In this document: in pieces, positions 31,695-51,795 of the stretch
Layout of the letters: every line of letters begins with the position of its first letter
How positions within the stretch are numbered: position 1 is the stretch's first letter
Source: Amyelois transitella
Lineage: Eukaryota; Arthropoda; Insecta; Lepidoptera; Pyralidae
DNA length: 64,000 bases
Reading direction: 5' to 3'
NCBI RefSeq assembly: GCF_032362555.1
Contig: NC_083513.1
Span: forward strand, 8,432,001 to 8,496,000
The notes under the pieces: model-generated
Told to the model about the DNA's origin: nothing
What the model saw: the letters and a program-made list of their open reading frames with translations, nothing else
Database searches by the model: none
Program-made: the position numbers and the translations under genes

Positions 31695-31812
31695 AGAAGT
31701 CACTGGTTCCTTTGTTCATATACTGTGGGCAATAAATTTATACATGTGATTTTATGTATGTATGTATAAATTTATTGCCCATAGTATATGAACAAAGGAA
31801 CCAGTGACTTCT
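31695..31812. repeat. 50-bp inverted repeat with LINE-T tail as loop
   Basis: Arms 31695-31744 and 31763-31812 pair with one mismatch. The 18-bp loop (31745-31762) reads TGTGATTTTATGTATGTA, the LINE-T tail sequence. The arms are not LINE-T sequence. Confidence 0.92.
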
Positions 31813-32115
31813 TTGCCTACCCCTCCGGGAAAGAGGCGTGATTTTATGTATGTATGTGCCTCTTTCCCGGAGGGGTAGGCAAAGACTACCTCTTTCCACT
31901 TGCCACGATCTCTGCATACTTCCTTCGCTTCATCCACATTCATAACTCTCTTCATGCAAGCTCGGCGTTCTGGTACTTTTGACCTGACCCTTTACCAGGA
32001 CGTCCTTAATTTGATCATGATACGTTCGTCTAGGTCTTCCTACTCCGACCTTTTCCTCCACACTCTCCTTAGATATCTGCTTAGTCAACCTGCTTTCATT
32101 CATCCTCTCCACAAA
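31811..32115 (-). mobile_element. LINE-T fragment with fold-back at its 3' end
   Basis: A plus-strand 27-bp end (31811-31837), a tail (31838-31857), then the same end inverted (31858-31884), continuing as about 257 bp of LINE-T on the minus strand to the Lys-Gln-Ile region. Confidence 0.9.
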
Positions 32116-40504: not shown

Positions 40505-40770
40505 GCCGTGTGGTTCCCGGCACTATTACAAAAAAGAATAGGACCACTCCATCTCTTTCCCATGGATGTCGTAAAAGGCGACTAAGGGATAGGCTTATAA
40601 ACTTAGGATTCCTCTTTTAGGCGATGGGCTAGCAACCTGTCACTATTTGAATCTCGGTTCTATCATTAAGCCAAATAGCTGAACGTGGCCATTCAGTCTT
40701 TTCAAGACTGTTGGCTCTGTCTACCCCGCAAGGGATATAGACGTGATCATATGTATGTATGTATGTATGT
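40505..40770 (+). mobile_element. SINE-A, full length, best-preserved copy
   Basis: 5' head GCCGTGTGGTTCCCGGC can fold (GCCG with CGGC). The body carries GGACCACTCCATCTCTTTCC, GATGGGCTAGCAACCTGTC and the small conserved hairpin AGTCTTTTCAAGACT. The 3' part has an outer stem GTCTA/TAGAC around CCC-GCAA-GGG, then GTGATCATATGTATG and further TATG units. It has no tRNA-type A/B box that I can see. Confidence 0.93.
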
Positions 40771-41690
40771 CTTCGTTCGTATTTAATTTGATTAGCTAGA
40801 TAAACTCTGTTCTCTCGATTTTTGAATCGGAATGTTAATTAAACAGATATATATTTGCTAATTAGACGTTTATCAGCTAATAAGATGCGTGTAGGCTTTC
40901 AATTTCCACTCATGCCATCCGCAATAATTTTGTGTTAGGAAGATCGATGGATATTCCTACTTGTTGGCAATAAATATATATTTATTTAAGTGGATATGTA
41001 AAGGTACTTATTTCAGTTCAGTATTGACGAAATGTAAACTAAATAAAATAATAACTCGACAGATTTTGATGTAAGGATTGTTGCCTCAAACAGAAATTTT
41101 TAATATAGGTAACCGTAGCACTTAAATATATTACGACTCTTAACTTGAATATATATATATATAAATCTACCATCCGCTATTTTTTTTTAACTCTTCTTTA
41201 TGTACTTTTTGCCAGTGCAATGAATGCAAATGATAGAATTGAGATTCATTCATTTATTCATATAGACAAATCTATATCCCCTCCCACGTCTATATAAGAG
41301 ACTAATAATAATAATAATTGAGATTCAATTAGTGAATTAGTTCAGTGATTTAACTTATTAAAGGATAATTATATTAATTACCTACCAGTTTCGTTCACGA
41401 TACAAAACTATTAACTTATTACTCTCCTCATTTCAGAAATCTGTTAGTGATTCTGTATGGCTGTATGCTTACGGACGAGATATGAGAGTAAAAAATGTTA
41501 CACTTCGGAAGTAGGCTAACCGTAAATAAAATTATAATTGGCTTTGTCTCTCGCTCCACGCATCTTCACGGTGTTTTAACACAGTATGGAGTTTGTAGCC
41601 AGCCTTAGAATTATCTTGATAATGCTCACACTAATTAGTGTTTTAATACTTATCGTGTTATCAAAGGGTGGGCATTTAACATGCATAAAT
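40771..41690. other. AT-rich DNA, nothing recognised
   Basis: A short (TA)n at 41150-41163. No exon-like segment. Confidence 0.4.
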
Positions 41691-41692
41691 AT

Positions 41693-41766
41693 AATGACGT
41701 CTTTATCCCTTGCGGGGTAGACAGAGCCAGCGGTCTTAAAATACTGACAGGCCACGTTCAGCATTA
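41693..41766 (-). mobile_element. SINE-A 3' fragment
   Basis: GACGTCTTTATCCCTTGCGG, GTAGACAGAGCC and CAGGCCACGTTCAGC. Confidence 0.8.
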
Positions 41767-42114
41767 AAATCTGCAAATAAGGTAAGTACTAATTTAATCT
41801 ATATCCTCCTTTTATGAAGCCGGTTATCGTTTTAAGTGTAACAAACTTTTTCCAAAAAATCGTATCAAAATCGGTTCAGCGTAACGCGAGATAATCGCGG
41901 ACGAAAATACATACCTGCATACAGGTGAACTGAGAACCACATATTTTTGAAGGCGATTAAATACACCTTTTCTTTGGTTTCCTCATCCCTTTAACGCTTT
42001 ATTAGAAATCCTGAGGAAAATTCGTCAACATAATTACATATTTTCTCTCAGAATTAAACATGTCTTTCGGTCCGCGTTGTTATATACTTGGTTCATATTT
42101 TGTACGTACAGACA

Positions 42115-42278
42115 TATTTTGTACCAACAGTCTTTAAAAGACCGAAAGGTGACGTACGAGTATGTATGGCTTTATGATGGAATTGAGATTCAAATAGTGA
42201 CAGGTTGCTAGCCCATCGCCTACAAAAGGAATCCTAAGTTTATGTCCCTATCCCTTAGTCGCCTCTTACGAAATCCAT
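42115..42278 (-). mobile_element. SINE-A middle fragment
   Basis: CAACAGTCTTTAAAAGACCG, AGTGACAGGTTGCTAGCCCA and CCCTTAGTCGCCTCTTACG; both ends missing. Confidence 0.82.
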
Positions 42279-45200
42279 GTTAAATATTAAATGTTAATAT
42301 ATCTTCAGTCAAAAGCAACTGTTACCCAATAAACTGCTTTACAACAAGCAGTAGTTGAGAATCTTTAGTGGTCTGCAGAAAACCGCAGGAATACTGCTAG
42401 ATTAAATTGTTTGTACAAATGTTCGCCTCAATGCAACGGTCCGATTTTATGGACGAAGATTGCCTTTAACCTACTGTGTAAAAGAGGGTTATGTCTTCCA
42501 AACGTGTGTTCTTTAGCAGCATATAAGCCTTCATGGATTTAAGGTAGTGTGGATTTAATTTCTTCTAGTTGTGATGGTTTATTGAAAGCATATTTCGTAA
42601 TGTTGTTTTTTATTAACATTGTAATATAAATAAACATTTCATTATATTTTAACAAAAAAAAAAAATATTTACCGTAAGGTAATTTAATATCTATTGTCTT
42701 GTGCCAACGTGCATAAAGTTTAAATAAATAAATAAGGAGGTAATATTTTCTTCTATTGACCCGATTTTAATAGGTCGTACAGACATAATCATGTAATGAA
42801 AGAAATTATTCAAAATTTGACAAACTCATAGATGTCCTCACCATTAGGTGATAATTTGAATTCCCAGGAAAGATTTTTTGCAAAGGCAAAGGTCCCAATC
42901 ATATTACTAGCGATGATAGTAAATATACCAAACATGCTGAGTTATGATTGATTTTATGGATATAATTATGTATGATGAGTTTAAAGTCTCAGTTAAGTCT
43001 TACTAGAATTCATTGAACCCGCATGCGCCTGACCCAATTTTTTATGAGTTGTTAAAGCCCCGAATTCCCTAAATTCCTGAAGGCGAAGCATCGAGTAATA
43101 GTTAATACTTTACTAGACAGGTGCTCACGAGATTCAACATCAAAAATTCCTTCCGAAACAAGTTTTTAATAATGATCCTCTATGTAATATTATCCCTATA
43201 ATAAACGCTAACAGAGGAACGAATCCGAATATTCGATTAGTAATGTTCATAAAATAATCCCTTGTAATTTATTTAAAAGAACCTCCATGGTTACTATAAT
43301 TCATTTAAGATAAGTAAAATTTATGGACGGTTCAAAGTTGAGAGGATGTTGCCTGTTGCCGCTGGTACAATGGTGAGGGAAAAGCGGGAAACAATTTTCC
43401 TTGTTAGTAAATAGAATTTAGATATTTTTTGGCAGTGGCCAGTTTGAATACATTTTCTAAATAAAAAAAAATTGAAGATTTGTGTATAGCAGTCCTAATT
43501 TACATATTACAAAATAGACATGGGGTTTCGTTCCCGGTTTACTTTCATCATAATTTCTTCAGTAGATTTTGCGTGAAAGAGAACCAAATAAACATCCACA
43601 CATCCTTACAAACTTCCGTATTTACAATATAAGTAGGATGTTAAGTATCTAACGTACCTAATTCAAACAAATTCTCTTGTGTTGCACCAAACGATTAAGT
43701 GGGCGTACAATGCAAGGTTAGATTAAATACCCATCTATTATTATTATGTTATATATGTATTAGGCTACTACTACGAAGTTATATGATTTTAACACTATGC
43801 TTCCAACCTATCTTAGTTGTGATTTATGTATAAAGTATCTATGTTAACATCGGTGGATTCCCCAAGATATTTTCTTTAATTTGATAAATCCCTCCTTGTA
43901 AAGTTTCTATTACGAATGTTTTTGTGTATAGTAACAGTTAAACCGAGATATATTCGAGTGGGATATTTTGATTTATTCGTCTTTTACAAAAAAACACAGA
44001 TTCTTAACTTTTACTCACAGTTGGAATTCGTGGGCATATCTAGATAATAAAAATAACAATGTAGCTTTGTTTATTTTAAATCTATATTAAGTGGCATTAA
44101 ATACATCAAAACGCTAGGCCAATGTCATTGAAAGTTGGGATTTTTAATACAAAACTCAACATTTTTGATTTCGAACTCTCACTTGGATAAAAATGGCCGA
44201 GCGGCCGCAGAATTCCATAAAATCATTATTAATTTATTAATGTATACGCTGGCCGCGCTCTCTCTGTAAAGAATTCATGGTACGGTGGCTAGTGTTGCCA
44301 ACTCTAATGTAAACTAAAACTGTAAGTCTCTGTTGAAAACTGTACTTCCATTTACGAGACAATTTTTGTGAATTCCTAGACAGAATGACCTTATTTTTTC
44401 ATAAATTTCTTAAAATTCACGAATTTTTACTTGGAATCGACCTACTTTTAGAAAAACAATACAATGAAGAATTAAGATTTGGAATTTACAACTGAAAACT
44501 AAATTTGGCATCGAAAAACAGTAGATCTGCTGAATTCTGCCGGTTAAATTACTGGTTGGAAACATTGACAGTGGCCGTATCCTCTTTAGCGATTGGACGA
44601 TAACGTCACTCGAATCGCGTCGAACCTAACCGGCGGATTATGGGAATTTGCGCAATTTATTCCCTATATTAATCATTAGTGCAAGAAAAAGTCTACTGCA
44701 GTCAATTCTTGGCTTGTTAAAAATATATTTCTTTATATCGAGTGGGATATTAAGCGTAGAAGTAAGTATTTTGCATATCGAGGTGTAAGGTGCAACTCAA
44801 CTAGTCGTAAATATTATGGTTAAATTAACTATCTGAAAATCAATCCCATTATGAAACCAATTAGCTCAACGTGGCCTCTGAACCTTTTGACGACTTTTGT
44901 CTACCTGCCCCTTAGGGGCTAAAGATTGATATTTCTAACACACACACATAATATATTAATAAAGCATATATTTTTTCTTTCAAAATTAGAAGTTCAATTT
45001 CAAAATTTTAATGTCTGAATAGTAAACGTTTGTACGTACGCATGAAGAGCGAATAAACTTAGTTTTCATTTAACAGCAAACATCCGACATAAACTTTCCT
45101 TTCTTTAATTTTATTATATTTTTTAGTTCAAGTGTATCTGTATAAAAGAGAAATCACTGATATAATGCGTAATGTTTTCATATCATTGTTCTTCAAGTTA

Positions 45201-47140
45201 TTTCTAGAACCGACCGTATTAGTATGATCGGATTTAGTTTCTTTTAATATTAATTAAACTCTGTACATCATCAACAACAGAATAGAATACGGCAGGACAG
45301 TTTAATGAAATAGATTTCTTTTGATAGACCTAAATATGCTTAAAACATTGTGCAACATTTTCTTTAAAATTAATCTTTCATTAACTTAAAATTGACACTC
45401 AAGAATGTGTAATATTGAAAGCGTTGGAAAATGAAATTCGTGAGAGCTATCCGCCACTTCATGTGTACACGCGAGCCGCGTTCAACAAATATACCGTAAT
45501 ACACGGAAACTAAAAACTGATAGAAGCGGCACCACAAAAAATAGACGCAACAATCAACTTGACGTGTACATCGATCAACTTGAATGCAACATCTGCAATT
45601 CACATAAGAACAAGCTTAAGTTAAAATTCAGAAAATGCAACAATAAAGATGACGCGCATATCAACTTCAATAAGAATACCAGTTGGATGAAGTAGATTTA
45701 AAATTTAAAAAATGTTAGTACTCAGATTACAGCAATGTAATTGATGGGCATATTGACTTGAAGAATGGCTGGGAATACGATTTCAGAACAACATTTTGAG
45801 AAGATTTGCAAGATTAAAAACTCATATTCCCACGCAATTCATTGTAAGGCATATTTATTATATGGAAGTAAGTAGGTAAGTGTAAATTTATCAAGATCTT
45901 TTTATTAATATTTAGGACCTTCTTTGCGAAATGAATGTTTGGGTGTAAAAATATATTATAATAAAATTTGAATTACTTTTGCCGTTATAATCTAAAACAC
46001 GCGGAAATAAAAAGAAAGAAACATATATCTAACCATATGGCAGAAAGTAATGGCAAGTCAAGATTACTAGCCGTGATAAATTGTAGTAGCTTCATAGTCT
46101 CGGTTAAAAATATTGATTTCAATAAGCCGCCAATAAATCACATTAAATATGCTTAAAGTCTGATAATTGAACTTGTTTCTAAACCATAATTGTCATATTT
46201 GACAACATACCCGTAGGTAGTACCTACCTTATTACTTAGTTAGTACCTACTATTACTTAGGTAAGTAATTATGAAAAATGTCAATTTAAAAACCGTTCGC
46301 CGTGTCTAGTATGCCTTATTGCTACACAGTAAACGGACCAAGACATTTGAAATTAAAAATGTAACGGCGTGATCTTATAAACAATTGCTCCGATTTTCCT
46401 TAGAAATTAATGCAGCATCATTCTCATTATCAGCAAGCAGAACTATTATAAGTAGCCTTTTGATGGACAGCTTATGTGTGTGTAATTATATGCATAGATA
46501 TACGAGTATGTGTACTGTGCACACAATACATAAAACGTAACATAAAACACGTCCCAAAATGTATTTAATTCAATTTATTTCTTCCCGAAATTTTACTGAT
46601 TTAGGTAATAGCGGTAGAGTTAAATTTGATACTACTCCCTAGTTTATTATTGTAAAACAGCAACATTCATCAATACATTTTAATTACTTTGTTTACTAAT
46701 TATATTTTGAACATTTAGTATTTGTACTGTACCATGAACACTGTTGTTTATTAGTACTTAAATTATGAGTGGCTTCATTATGGTTCTCACAAATAAGATC
46801 CGTTTAAGTTACATTAGAAGAAGAATAAGTACCTAATACATAAGATTTTTGATTTGCTGTATAGGTTATTACTCCCTAACTTTTAGTTATACTTTTTGGA
46901 ACATGCGTGTGATTTATGTTTTTATGAAGATTTACGTAAAACAGACAACGAAAAGAGTCAACAAACTCAGCTAAATCATCCATTGGAGCGTTGCAAAAAT
47001 ATGACCGGACATACTAACATGACAGAAAAACTTTTTCAATACAAGACAATGATAAGACAATATTAAATGAATAATGAATAAGCAATGTCAATATTACAAG
47101 AGCACATCAGCGTTTTTGAGGCTGCATATGAATAATTTAT
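42279..47140. other. Long gene-poor stretch
   Basis: Contains a minus-oriented lepidopteran repeat end (43545-43635), an old SINE-A fragment (44848-44930, plus: AGCTCAACGTGGCCTCTGA, GTCTACCTGCCCCTTAGGGG) and a GC-richer patch at 44580-44650 with a CRE-like AACGTCA. Short frames, such as 45370-45603, lack recognisable features. Confidence 0.45.
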
Positions 47141-47144
47141 TAGA

Positions 47145-48792
47145 GCTAACTGTACGGACAAGTGTATGGATGACAATAGTGGTATCAATGCTACTGGATG
47201 GGTTATTAAAAAACCGAATGTGACTGCGCATTTGGGCGGTAACACATCAATCCTTTATTATGTCTTGGATATAATAGACCCTGAGGGCAATCGAGTTACC
47301 ATGCGAGACTTCATTATTATTTCACATTCAAGTGGCCCAAATAAAACTGTCTGGTAGCTTTTTGCATCCAAAAATAAATGTTCAAGTAATTCAACATCTT
47401 TGAACATTAGTTTTAGGATGAGAATTTCCCGTATAAAATGAATTTTATGTCCCTTAAAAGCATAGTGTGAATGTGTTATGATAAATGTCGCATCCCATAT
47501 TTTCATACTTAGATCATTTGTGTTAGATTCCTCTTTGTTGCAACAATGTTCTAATAACATGATATTAAAATGTAGAATACATTTGTTATTTTAACACCCA
47601 ATAAATAACTTTCAAATTCTCTAGATCTATAATCGCCACAACCAAGTGATAATGAGAATAACTACAATTCATTCAGTTTACAACTTGTGAGATTTTATCA
47701 ATGGTCATATACAGAGGTCATTTATTACTATAATGTCACCATCACTCTTTGCTGACATGTCTATTCTCTTTGTATTACTTATAGGGCCTTATCAGAGTCC
47801 ATTCAATTGATTTAAGCTTGATTTATCATGTTTTGAATATGGTTTGTTGATCTGGGCCGTTCCTAAGTTAATTTTGTTGGTGGTCATTCATCAATATTGT
47901 CAATATAAATATTTTGTAGGATATCCTTAGAATGTCTCTGTTTAAAGTATTGAGGATAAATTTATGATTATAAAATTTCGTAAATAAACAAATGGGCGAT
48001 TGAATATCTTTTTGATTCGCATTTTGCAGTTACCAATATGGATTTTTAAACGTTGATTGTAAATGAAATTGATTTTTATTTTACAAACTGACTATTTTCA
48101 TTTAATTTGTAAGTCAAAGACAACATATTGGGGCGAATACAATGTAAAATGTTGTCAGTGCACTTATTTTTTTTTCCTTCCTAGTTTTGGCGTGGCCTGG
48201 GGTGCGTTAGTCAGGTTTTTACACGAAACAACTTATTTCTGACCCATATTGGATCGTGGTAAAAGCTGTACTAGACGAATACCCCTATTCTCTTAGTCAC
48301 CTTTTGCAACACTCAGTGGTCATTTTCTTCTAAGTCCCGGGAACCACACGTCACGATTAGTGCTAATAATTTTATACAACCAGAAAGGTATATAACGGAT
48401 TCCAAATTTAATAGTAATTATCGGCAGAAGTTAGTTTCTTAGCTGACAGTATATCATAATTACTAATAGTAATTGCGTTTTAACTCATCGGCTGACTGAT
48501 CACTAGATGTTCCTCGTATGCTTGTTGAATAGAAGCGTATTTGGAAGTTATTACATGCTATTGTCCAACTTATACTAGAATGAGTGTAGTATGTTACCTC
48601 AAATTTAGTACGAGAAGCATTCTATTATCGAGTTGTATACCGTGGAATGCACATCAAAATATAATTATTTCAGATAATAAAGAAGAGGTTGAATTAGAAA
48701 TTTTTGGAGGAGCGATAACGAAGGATGAAGATGGACCAACCCTGTCAAACCTGTTCGAGTTGATTCATATACTATTTGAAAAAGGCTTTTGA
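47145..48792 (+). CDS. Possible small secreted-protein gene, two exon candidates (weak CBM39-like similarity)
   Basis: After an acceptor-like TTATTAG (to 47143) a frame reads N-C-T-D-K-C, then NATGWVIKKPNVTAHLGGNT, then YYVLDIIDPEGNRVTMRDFI, stopping at 47357. The W-x-I-x-x-P-N-V-T-x-x-L-G-G...YYV pattern recalls the N-terminal glucan-binding (CBM39) domain of insect beta-glucan recognition proteins, but it is short. There are five N-glycosylation sequons. A second candidate exon follows ATTATTTCAG at about 48672 and encodes EEVELEIFGGAITKDEDGPT, then LFELIHILFEKGF and a stop. I could not find a donor that joins them, nor a signal-peptide exon, so it may be a pseudogene. Confidence 0.25.
48176..48352. 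repeat. Family C fragment (+) joined to SINE-A head fragment (-)
   Basis: TTAGTCAGGTTTTTACACGA (family C) is followed at about 48280 by CTATTCTCTTAGTCACC and CCCGGGAACCACACG (SINE-A). Confidence 0.6.
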
Positions 48793-49960
48793 AAAATTTA
48801 ATGTCATGAGAATTGGTTGTACAAATTAGGCATACTATTTAGAGCTACATTTACGTTTATTTAAAGCAGAAATACAGAGATAAATTGTCATGTAAAACAA
48901 GTACGAACATTGGGCAAATCAAGGTACGTATTGAAATATAGATGATTTTTTTTATAAAAAGTATACTATGGAGAGGTAGGATAGGTTAAAATTAAAGAAT
49001 TCATTTCGTTTAAATTAAAGGTTATAAATGTGAGACGAAATAAATATTTTCTACCTCAACTTTTTGCTTAAGAAAATCCTGTGCATGCGCATCTTATTTA
49101 TAGCTTATCTGCATTACTTTGTTGCTGAAACTAGAACTAGGCGTAGCAAATCTGTTTAAAAACATTACCATACTAAGGAGCTTGACCCATATTAATGGCA
49201 TTCTATGAGATTCTGCGAATATCTGCCTAGACTTGTTTTAGATTACTCTCGTAAAATGCATTTTTAATGATCTCTTCTCACATTTTTGTCGTGTAGACAA
49301 ATTTCAAGTTTTTAAAATAAGCGTAAACTTTTAAATTTACATATTTACGTAATTTACAAAATTTGTATGTAACCTTCATGTTTCATAAAGTTTAAATTTG
49401 TGATAAATATGAGTAACCATTATTTTTGACACTCAATAGCTTCATACCCCATTTTTGGGTTCTATTGTAATATTACTTATTATTTCAAATTAATAAGTAA
49501 CCAAACCATAGTCTAAATATTATAATTGAATTTTTATTTCCACGAATTCATTATAATTAGCGTGATTACCAAGTATTAGCTCTATCGTGAATGGGGGGGC
49601 CTAGAGCTATATGCTCCGCTTACTAGGCCCGAACACATCTGGCAAAACACATTTTTACATACATTATAGACGGTATACCGTTAAGATGGGCATCTAAAAT
49701 TAATATTTATTTTTATTACGAGCACTCGGGGCAGTAATTAAGATCTTATTACATTTGATACTGATCTGATTAAATAACGATAGACCCACGAGAGTAGTGG
49801 TTATTTATTCTGCTGTAGCGTTTGGCTCGAGGCTGTATTTTTCGTGTTGTCATTATTGAATTGAGATGGTGTTGTTTCTCAATAAATGCGATGGGTTATT
49901 GTGAACGAAATTGATATTTGAAGAACACTGTTGGATATTAACCATAAAGTTTATATGATA
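48793..49960. other. AT-rich DNA, nothing recognised
   Basis: A small GC-richer patch with a seven-G run (49590-49640). No gene evidence. Confidence 0.4.
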
Positions 49961-50152
49961 AAGGGAAAGGCTTATAAACTTGGGATTCTTCTTTTAGGCG
50001 ATAGGCTAGCAACCTGTCACTATTTGAATCTCAATTCTATTATTGGCCAAGCAGCTGAACGTAGCTTTTTAGTCTTTTCAAGACTGTTAGTTCTGTCTAG
50101 CCCGTAAGGGATAAAGACGTGATTATGTGAGTATGTATGTATGTGTGTATTT
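49961..50152 (+). mobile_element. SINE-A, 5' truncated
   Basis: AAGGCTTATAAACTTGGGAT through GTCTAGCCCGTAAGGGATAA, then ATTATGTGAGTATGTATG. Confidence 0.85.
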
Positions 50153-50773
50153 ATATGTTTAATTTTTTACTTACGGGTTTGCTGGAAGATATGTCTTTTG
50201 GAATAAAGTACTTTTAATTTCATTTCATTATATACTCGTATTATTATTTCGTTAAAAATAAAATTTCGGGACAAGGCCTATTAGATTAAGACTACTTCAC
50301 CTCTACTAGATGATTTTACGTGAAACACTTCTGATAATTGTTCTTCTTTCTCTTTTCCTTTTCCCAGTTCATTTAGAGTCAGCCCGGGACAAGCTCTGAA
50401 TATGTTTGATCCATTTAACTTTGGCATTTATATATTAAATAAGAGTGACCTAAGAGCGCACAATTATTGCATTAAGAAGTTGTGCATACTTACTGCAAGA
50501 TTTGAACCAATATCCTTCAAGTTAACCGGACCATGGAGACAGTGTATAATCCATTTAAAAAGTAAATACGTAGGTAGCGCCTTACGGCATTCAAAATTTG
50601 TCGTATCATTATGAGTTGCCTGGGATATCCGAATATTTGAAATGCTTTGTAAATATTTGTAATGCTTTAAACATTCAAGATTACAAGTGTCTTAAAGTAA
50701 TACCTAAAAATGTGCTTAAAACACAAGGTTCTCTTGGAAATTCCCAGTTAAAGAAGTATTTTTTACCTAACTG

Positions 50774-51795
50774 ATTCCGACGTTACATACATACATACAT
50801 ACATAAAATCACGCCTCTTTCCCGGAGGGGTAGGCAGAGACTACCTCTTTCCACTTGCCACGATCTCTGCATACTTCTTTCGCTTCGTCCACATTCATAA
50901 CTCTCTTCATACAAGCTCGGCGGTTTCGGGTACTTTTGACCTGACCCTTTACCAGGACGTCCTTAATTTGATCAAGATACGTTCGTCTAGGTCTTCCCAC
51001 TCCGACCTTTCCCTCCACACTCTCCTTGTATATCTGCTTAGTCAACCTGCTTTCATTCATCCTCTCCACATGACCGAACCATCTTAACATACCCTTTTCT
51101 ATTCCTGTAACTACATCTTCTTTCACATCACAACATTCCCTTATCACGCTGTTCCTTATCCTGTCACTCAATTTCACACCCATCATACTCCTTAACGCTC
51201 TCATTTCCACTGCATTTATTCTGCTTTCATGCTTCTTTTGCCATACCCAACTTTCACTCCCATACATTAATGTCGGGACCAACACGCCCCTGTGCACAGC
51301 CAGTCGAGCCTTTTTGGATAGTTTCTGACTGCTCATAAAGGCATGCAAAGCTCCATTCACCATGTTCCCCGCGTTCACTCTCCTTTCAATATCACTATCA
51401 TACTTGCCATCTGATGTAAACTTTGATCCTAGATATACAAACTCTTTCACTTGCTCCACTTTTTCTCCTCCAATCAAAATATTACATGCTGTCATTTCTT
51501 TCTCCATTTCAAAAACCAGTGTTTTAGTTTTACTTACGTTCACTTTCATTCCTTTCTCTTTTAAAGCTTCATGCATACAGTTTACCATCTCCTGTAACTC
51601 CTCCGCTGATGACGCCAGTATAACCTGATCGTCGGCATAGAGCAGACATTTGACGAGTAACTCATTCATCCTTAATCCACTTTTAGACTCTTTCAAATCT
51701 GTCGAACAGCTATCCATAAATAGGTTGAACAGCCACGGTGACGCAACACATCCTTGCCTAACGCCTTTCTCAATCTTATTATAATTCCGACGTTA
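50774..51795 (-). mobile_element. LINE-T insertion, 5' truncated, with perfect 12-bp target-site duplication
   Basis: The insert 50786-51783 is flanked by ATTCCGACGTTA at 50774-50785 and 51784-51795. The minus-strand 3' end reads GGCGTGATTTTATGTATG plus TATG units; there is no poly(A). Perfect duplication and an intact frame indicate a recent event. Confidence 0.95.
50809..51783 (-). CDS. LINE-T reverse transcriptase C-terminal part (5' truncated)
   Basis: The frame is open from the truncation point (51783) to the stop at 50809, 324 residues. It begins in reverse-transcriptase block 4 (GVRQGCVASPWLFNLFMD). The catalytic YADD follows in L-L-Y-A-D-D-Q-V-I, then thumb-like sequence (E-F-V-Y-L-G-S-K-F) and a C-terminal region with LRWFGHVERM and GVGRPRRTYLDQIKDVLV that is typical of RTE- and jockey-like LINEs. 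The finger domain and endonuclease are absent, so it cannot be functional. The ending is E-V-V-S-A-Y-P-S-G-K-E-A. The clade is uncertain; the short tandem tail rather than poly(A) favours an RTE-like family. Confidence 0.9.
   Translation of the reverse strand, partial: YNKIEKGVRQGCVASPWLFNLFMDSCSTDLKESKSGLRMNELLVKCLLYADDQVILASSAEELQEMVNCMHEALKEKGMKVNVSKTKTLVFEMEKEMTACNILIGGEKVEQVKEFVYLGSKFTSDGKYDSDIERRVNAGNMVNGALHAFMSSQKLSKKARLAVHRGVLVPTLMYGSESWVWQKKHESRINAVEMRALRSMMGVKLSDRIRNSVIRECCDVKEDVVTGIEKGMLRWFGHVERMNESRLTKQIYKESVEGKVGVGRPRRTYLDQIKDVLVKGQVKSTRNRRACMKRVMNVDEAKEVCRDRGKWKEVVSAYPSGKEA

Follow-up and report, generated by a model that had tools for sequence, protein, structure and literature searches.

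Evidence for a short and a long interspersed element with both ends in common in Amyelois transitella

The window analysed here, a stretch of 64,000 nt from Amyelois transitella (C9:8432001-8496000, in a genome of 327 Mb and 33 contigs that was searched as a whole), contains two retroposons with similar 3′ ends. SINE-A, a short interspersed nuclear element (SINE) of 266 nt with a (TATG)n 3′ end, lies at 40505-40770 on the plus strand. A 5′-truncated copy of LINE-T, a long interspersed nuclear element (LINE), lies at 50786-51783 on the minus strand, with a matching duplication, AACGTCGGAAT, on each side. The two are a genuine SINE/LINE pair; pairs of this kind are known, and what is unusual here is the anatomy, with both ends shared, the candidate recognition region in coding sequence and a chimera in the genome. 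In length and repeat end, SINE-A fits the lepidopteran tRNA-derived SINE type (250-300 nt, short repeat end); a search with Rfam models gave no tRNA match for it at E ≤ 5. For SINEs like PxSE1 and PxSE2, the published length range is 252-298 (Han et al. 2021, PMC8010984). The features of the two elements, including the reverse transcriptase (RT) open reading frame (ORF) of LINE-T, are as follows.

40505..40617, plus strand: SINE-A head; SINE positions 3-113 are 84.7% identical to the 5′ end of the full-length LINE-T copy L184
40618..40714, plus strand: SINE-A middle, without significant match in LINE-T, containing a second hairpin, CAGTCTTTTCAAGACTG
40715..40768, plus strand: SINE-A 3′ tail in common with LINE-T, 81.5% identity
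40719..40742, plus strand: proposed SINE-A hairpin, GTCTA-C-CCC-GCAA-GGG-ATA-TAGAC
40750..40770, plus strand: SINE-A (TATG)n repeat end
50809..51783, minus strand: 3′ part of the LINE-T RT ORF in the 5′-truncated copy; frame 50812-51648 with RVT_1, stop TGA 50809-50811
50813..50835, minus strand: LINE-T hairpin, GCCT-A-CCCC-TCC-GGG-AAAG-AGGC, within the last nine codons (SAYPSGKEA)
50786..50805, minus strand: LINE-T (TATG)n repeat end
51784..51794, minus strand: target-site duplication AACGTCGGAAT, 5′ side of LINE-T
50774..50784, minus strand: target-site duplication AACGTCGGAAT, 3′ side of LINE-T

The second hairpin of the middle segment is perfect (40693-40709), occurs in SINE-A only and lies shortly 5′ of the shared tail.

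The 3′ ends of the two elements align, as the initial annotation had claimed: SINE positions 211-264 match the LINE tail over ~54 nt (E = 8e-10), so that the 3′ end of the SINE is homologous to that of a LINE in the same genome. With the TATG repeats removed, the best match between the two was still tail to tail, its score being reached anywhere by 11 of 2,000 shuffles, and the window holds 24 occurrences of the tail motif where 0.56 would be expected; the motif excess and the repeat-free comparison together rule out chance, or the repeats alone, as the source of the match. A sample of 350,128 bases, composed of the window, 35 arbitrary loci (260,000 bases) and 8 loci fetched for SINE-A, yielded 100 SINE tails and 25 LINE tails. 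BLAST with the SINE tail marked 118 places in this sample, of which 106 continue as SINE body, 1 as LINE-T and 11 as neither, the last resembling old, decayed SINEs by eye; no other LINE carrying the SINE tail was found among them. A DNA search of the genome with LINE-T as query, which skips very common words, returned nothing. Strict patterns gave 0 matches in viral contigs and the genome-contig pattern also gave 0; the matches listed for a loose pattern in viral contigs were taken as chance, and no RT relatives were confirmed there. Two inverted arrangements of the tail were also seen. At 31805-31890 of the window, a LINE-T tail is followed by its reverse-complement copy, which ends abruptly at the 3′ arm of the hairpin. 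At L159:120-175, two SINE tails without TATG repeats are joined in inverted orientation within the 3′ arm, perhaps as a fold-back product of reverse transcription.

The two elements also have their 5′ ends in common, which was invisible to the initial annotation because the copy of LINE-T in the window is 5′-truncated. LINE-T has one long ORF, with an open frame of 1061 aa and a length of 1036 aa when counted from its first ATG; it encodes Exo_endo_phos_2 and RVT_1 above the cut-off and Exo_endo_phos just below it. A single ORF with endonuclease and RT, followed by a very short untranslated region (UTR) of simple repeats at the 3′ end, is the RTE-type layout, and LINE-T probably belongs to the RTE clade, given its resemblance to published pairs. 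The family is young: all 139 scored protein hits are identical (100%) over 279 aa (best 139 of 32,246 candidates), many of them in open frames of 1059-1061 aa. L184, a copy with endonuclease and RT domains flanked by ATATTTACGAG, starts with the SINE-A head minus about its first five bases (E = 4e-32 for SINE 3-113), and nothing in LINE-T significantly matches the SINE middle (114-210). Among six further copies with 1061-aa frames, five begin with GCCGTGTGGTTCCCGGCAC like SINE-A and the sixth, apparently truncated, is without the head, which is thus present at the start of 6 of the 7 copies read, L184 included. The head and 5′UTR (1-374) are spanned at 99-100% by all 40 scored genome matches (best 40 of 2221, L184 included), among which copies without the head would rank lower because the query contained it. 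Since five of the six further copies and all 40 matches carry the head, it is part of the LINE-T master and not one chance insertion. Judged from sequence, SINE-A and LINE-T thus have both termini in common, a head of ~113 nt and a tail of ~54 nt. Bearing on a possible role of the head in transcription by polymerase III, runs of four or more T number 12 in the L184 element and two in SINE-A. Within the shared head (40505-40617 of the window, and L185-L188 and L190), GCCG/CGGC and GUGGU/ACCAC helices could cross to form a pseudoknot, as judged by eye. A 5′-terminal ribozyme like that of hepatitis delta virus was considered for the head and dropped, as Rfam lists none and the helix order does not fit.

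The direction in which the head moved can be read in two ways. An RTE LINE already in possession of the head may have supplied both ends of SINE-A, instead of the LINE capturing the head of a SINE, and we hold this to be a serious possibility, though less likely than not. It has precedents in Bov-A2 (with the 5′ end of BovB), RTESINE1, MAR4 and RTE1-N1_LA, all of which have both ends in common with an RTE-clade LINE (table in PMC3747384), and the first base is the same in SINE-A and LINE-T. Unlike the Bov-A2 type, however, SINE-A has a head that belongs to a SINE type filed as tRNA-derived in lepidopteran papers, and the LINE may therefore be the receiver. PxSE1 and PxSE2, whose 3′ ends differ, carry a tRNA-related head of 72 nt plus a central domain of 44 nt, and strong divergence is reported among the 5′ regions of SfSE1, PxSE5 and PxLINE1 (PMC8010984). 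Moreover, the LINE head is without 8 nt that most of 97 SINE copies possess. These published observations and the 8-nt gap favour the LINE as receiver, the opposite being a known route.

Taken as a partner relation, the association of SINE-A with LINE-T is well supported by sequence comparison: SINE-A is probably a non-autonomous retroposon that owes its mobility to the enzyme of the very young, RTE-like LINE-T. That SINE-A is a user of LINE-T, as initially proposed, is the most likely reading, given the absence of any other LINE from the tail sample, the presence of identical copies of both elements, and the chimera. All 40 scored SINE-A candidates are 100% identical over 266 nt (best 40 of 474 candidates). 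Duplications of at least 8 nt flank 21 of 40 full-length SINE copies and 11 of 23 LINE copies in a crude, exact-match search, a part of which may be chance. The chimera, L191, was found by a pattern search of the genome in which a GUCU...AGAC tail had to follow upstream sequence of the LINE, and which gave 13 exact matches and 0 in the reversed control; by eye, the 13 comprise five LINE tails with GUCU/AGAC, L191 and seven SINE-like matches. L191 is a 5′-truncated LINE-T (LINE 665-996 at 90.7%, tail included) whose tail is written in the letters of the SINE (SINE 206-266 at 93.5%), and it is flanked on both sides by ATGTAAGTATTAT, a 13-nt duplication identified by eye. A LINE body with a SINE tail between duplications is what would be expected if one enzyme uses both tails. 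On the simplest reading, L191 would stem from a single target-primed event, started on SINE RNA and continued on LINE RNA after a switch within the shared tail.

An alternative is that another relative, either like the second lineage LINE-2 or outside the sample, mainly drove SINE-A, and that the match to LINE-T reflects the common descent of RTE tails. TATG repeats also form the end of LINE-2, which was first seen at L026:910-1092. Its scored matches (best 40 of 1830 candidates) include 39 further, non-self copies with 85-92% identity to one copy. In a separate observation, L026:633-1117 holds a LINE-T copy and a LINE-2 copy in tandem on the same strand, each with its own tail. Several results count against LINE-T as the partner. 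The SINE tail fits LINE-2 almost as well as LINE-T (scores of 29 and 30). In the 260 kb of arbitrary loci, SINE segments have a median identity of 86.5% (n = 86) against 94.6% for LINE segments (n = 15), and an identity of 97% or more is reached by 1 of 86 SINE segments and 3 of 15 LINE segments. SINE segments are thus older on average, and much of SINE history may therefore predate LINE-T; relatives like LINE-2 may have served earlier SINE copies. In the stem, the five LINE tails with GUCU/AGAC, each from a single copy elsewhere in the genome, come nearer to SINE-A than LINE-T does. SINE-A itself has no clear duplication (5 nt). As for L191, its duplication and flanks are partly TATG-like, the flank on its 5′ side is reminiscent of an older SINE tail, the duplication is separated from the LINE match by a few bases, and it could possibly have arisen by later tail exchange or gene conversion. 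Nevertheless, the identical copies of SINE-A call for an enzyme that was active recently. LINE-T is the young family observed, has the head of the SINE and is also the sole LINE whose 5′ end was read. We consider it unlikely that a relative other than LINE-T was the main driver. The insertion ages agree in the youngest layer, in which both elements have identical copies. No LINE closer to the SINE tail appeared in the 350,128-base sample, whereas genome-wide the five LINE copies are closer in the stem.

We next consider whether the tail acts as a hairpin. In eels, UnaL2 and UnaSINE have a common 3′ stem-loop, located before short repeats, that is recognised by the RT. The present pair may work in a similar way, with a shared 3′ stem-loop before short repeats; it differs in that the LINE-T hairpin lies at the end of the ORF and not in a 3′UTR. 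Both tails can fold, as initially suggested, by forming an outer GYCU/AGRC stem, and the same holds for LINE-2: when 43 nt of context are folded, the probabilities of the four outer pairs are 0.98-1.0 in the SINE, 0.77-0.80 in LINE-T, where an alternative fold is equal in energy, and 0.92-0.99 in LINE-2. In a count of pairs over the tails, the covariation score was 0.144 against 0.116, 83.0% of cells were paired against 81.5%, both above all 500 shuffles and slid versions, and cells with double changes exceeded all 500 shuffles. Since the excess is driven by one inherited change, present in 18 distinct rows, the covariation score does not count here as support. Recognition of the hairpin by the LINE-T enzyme is a plausible hypothesis. 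The five LINE tails mentioned above keep the stem through a double change, GUCU/AGAC replacing GCCU/AGGC, and were not used as support; four are LINE-T-like, of which one has TTC in the loop, and one is LINE-2-like. Their positions are:

C1:2628713, double-changed LINE tail
C8:2047173, double-changed LINE tail
C27:2224517, double-changed LINE tail
C31:5241050, double-changed LINE tail
C11:10969127, double-changed LINE tail

A hairpin as the recognised structure faces objections of its own. Single-sequence fold energies are barely or not beyond those of shuffles (z = -1.52, -1.99, -0.94 and +0.92), and RNAalifold predicted zero pairs on 117 tails, made up of 92 SINE tails (8 identical targeted copies of the 100 were left out) and 25 LINE tails, which is unsurprising for decayed copies, yet no support. 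One pair is informative: among 106 distinct rows, 75 have U-A and 18 have C-G, a single change between families; pairs changed on both sides number 3 against 4.4 in shuffles. Identity within the hairpin in 79 SINE copies chosen by their body (0.896) is about the same as in its neighbours (0.844 to 0.928). For a UnaL2-type stem, several compensatory changes would be expected; the stem here has one family-level C-G/U-A change and no RNAalifold structure. The compensatory outer pair of the initial annotation is accordingly real as a U-A against C-G difference, and it amounts to one change between two families. The proposal that the hairpin is the ticket of the SINE rests on that one change and, with no RNAalifold pairs and with mixed pair counts, was not upheld in that form. 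A GNRA or UNCG cap as a family rule is ruled out, as the loops are GCAA in the SINE, UCC(G) in LINE-T and AAU in LINE-2, with no common class.

These results leave room for an RT that reads the letters of the tail (CTACCCC, GTGAT and the TATG repeats) without any hairpin, the stem being incidental. Such a reading would accommodate the weak z-scores, the empty RNAalifold prediction, the single family-level covariation and the differing loop classes. On the other hand, neither the C-G/U-A change nor the loop changes remove the predicted outer pairs from any of the three families, and a 3′ stem-loop is common in LINEs and SINEs of the stringent type (PMC3747384). We judge recognition by letters alone to be less likely than not, if worth keeping in view.

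Codon use at the end of the RT ORF provides a further line of evidence. The LINE-T hairpin spans the codons of SAYPSGKEA, directly followed by the stop TGA. Compared with the majority of 20 LINE-2 copies, LINE-T shows many synonymous differences upstream of this end. In the last 18 codons, however, the same codon is used at 12 of 12 conserved degenerate residues; upstream of them, the figure is 12 of 27 (Fisher p = 0.0009). For the last nine (hairpin) codons it is 7 of 7 against 17 of 32 (p = 0.03). Against a single LINE-2 copy, the counts are 11/11 versus 6/17 for 18 codons (p = 0.0009) and 6/6 versus 11/22 for nine (p = 0.055). The comparison covers two LINE lineages; the nine-codon cut is that of the hairpin as initially annotated, while the cut at codon -18 was set after the data had been viewed. 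The proposed cause of the frozen synonymous sites is a recognition signal written into the last RT codons, and the freezing is better evidence of RNA-level constraint than the folding. It also extends upstream beyond the part shared with the SINE, and since it is longer than the SINE similarity, part of it may serve another purpose. This extension to codon -18, upstream of the hairpin and outside the shared tail, likewise suits an RT that reads letters without a stem.

The mechanism that we propose combines these elements. The RT of LINE-T would bind the hairpin of ~24 nt together with the GTGAT directly before the repeats, and target-primed reverse transcription would start there, so that any RNA with such an end would be copied. 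In LINE-T itself, the signal would be encoded in the last RT codons. Head and tail would have been exchanged between SINE and LINE through template switching by the RT, and the common head may give both RNAs the same start. A fuller version, which we put forward with less than even confidence, is a two-way trade: the SINE took the recognition tail of the LINE, encoded in the final codons and the stop of the RT gene, and the LINE took the 5′ head of the SINE, gaining a start signal and a burst, which would leave one replicating pair with the same termini. Parts would be exchanged when the RT changes templates within the hairpin that both carry, L191 being an example.

The initial annotation knew of no description of this pair, yet its kind is already known from lepidopteran SINE/LINE pairs with a 43-bp common tail (PMC8010984, PMC3272025). 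Tail sharing has been reported for SfSE1 and PxSE5 with PxLINE1: the tail of PxSE5 and PxLINE1.1 (3228 bp, endonuclease and RT) measures 43 bp at 84% identity, and PxSE5 and SfSE1 have 56 bp in common and an (ATGT)n end (PMC8010984). Compared by description and not by sequence, this is likewise a lepidopteran SINE and LINE with a common tail; the main text of Han et al. is without the words 'stem-loop' and 'hairpin'. HaSE1 and HaSE3 share a 43-bp tail at 82% identity with the RTE LINE HaRTE1.1, for which stringent recognition was discussed (Wang et al. 2012, PMC3272025). They differ from the present pair in having TGA repeats instead of TATG and, as far as the accessible account goes, in that no common 5′ end of the LINE is described; the head of HaSE1 is said to be tRNA-Glu-derived. 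The Metulj SINE of Heliconiini is a further lepidopteran SINE with an RTE partner, assigned by its 3′ tail and called suspected (PMC6685494); the comparison is again by description, and 'hairpin' and 'stem' are absent from the accessible text. The eel experiments are mentioned in PMC3747384. The literature found, with most subscription papers outside its reach, contained no account of this hairpin, of an overlap between hairpin and RT ORF, or of any LINE from Lepidoptera that carries a SINE head.

How a LINE chooses its template, and how a SINE captures that choice, is to our knowledge understood in detail for few pairs. The present pair is young, with many intact LINE frames and a candidate signal of about 24-50 nt, which makes recognition directly testable, and in L191 a candidate product of template switching can be seen. 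A recognition hairpin within the coding end of the RT, if true, would couple the sequence of the enzyme to that of its template, and a LINE with the head of a SINE, if true, would show that parts flow in both directions between the two kinds of element.

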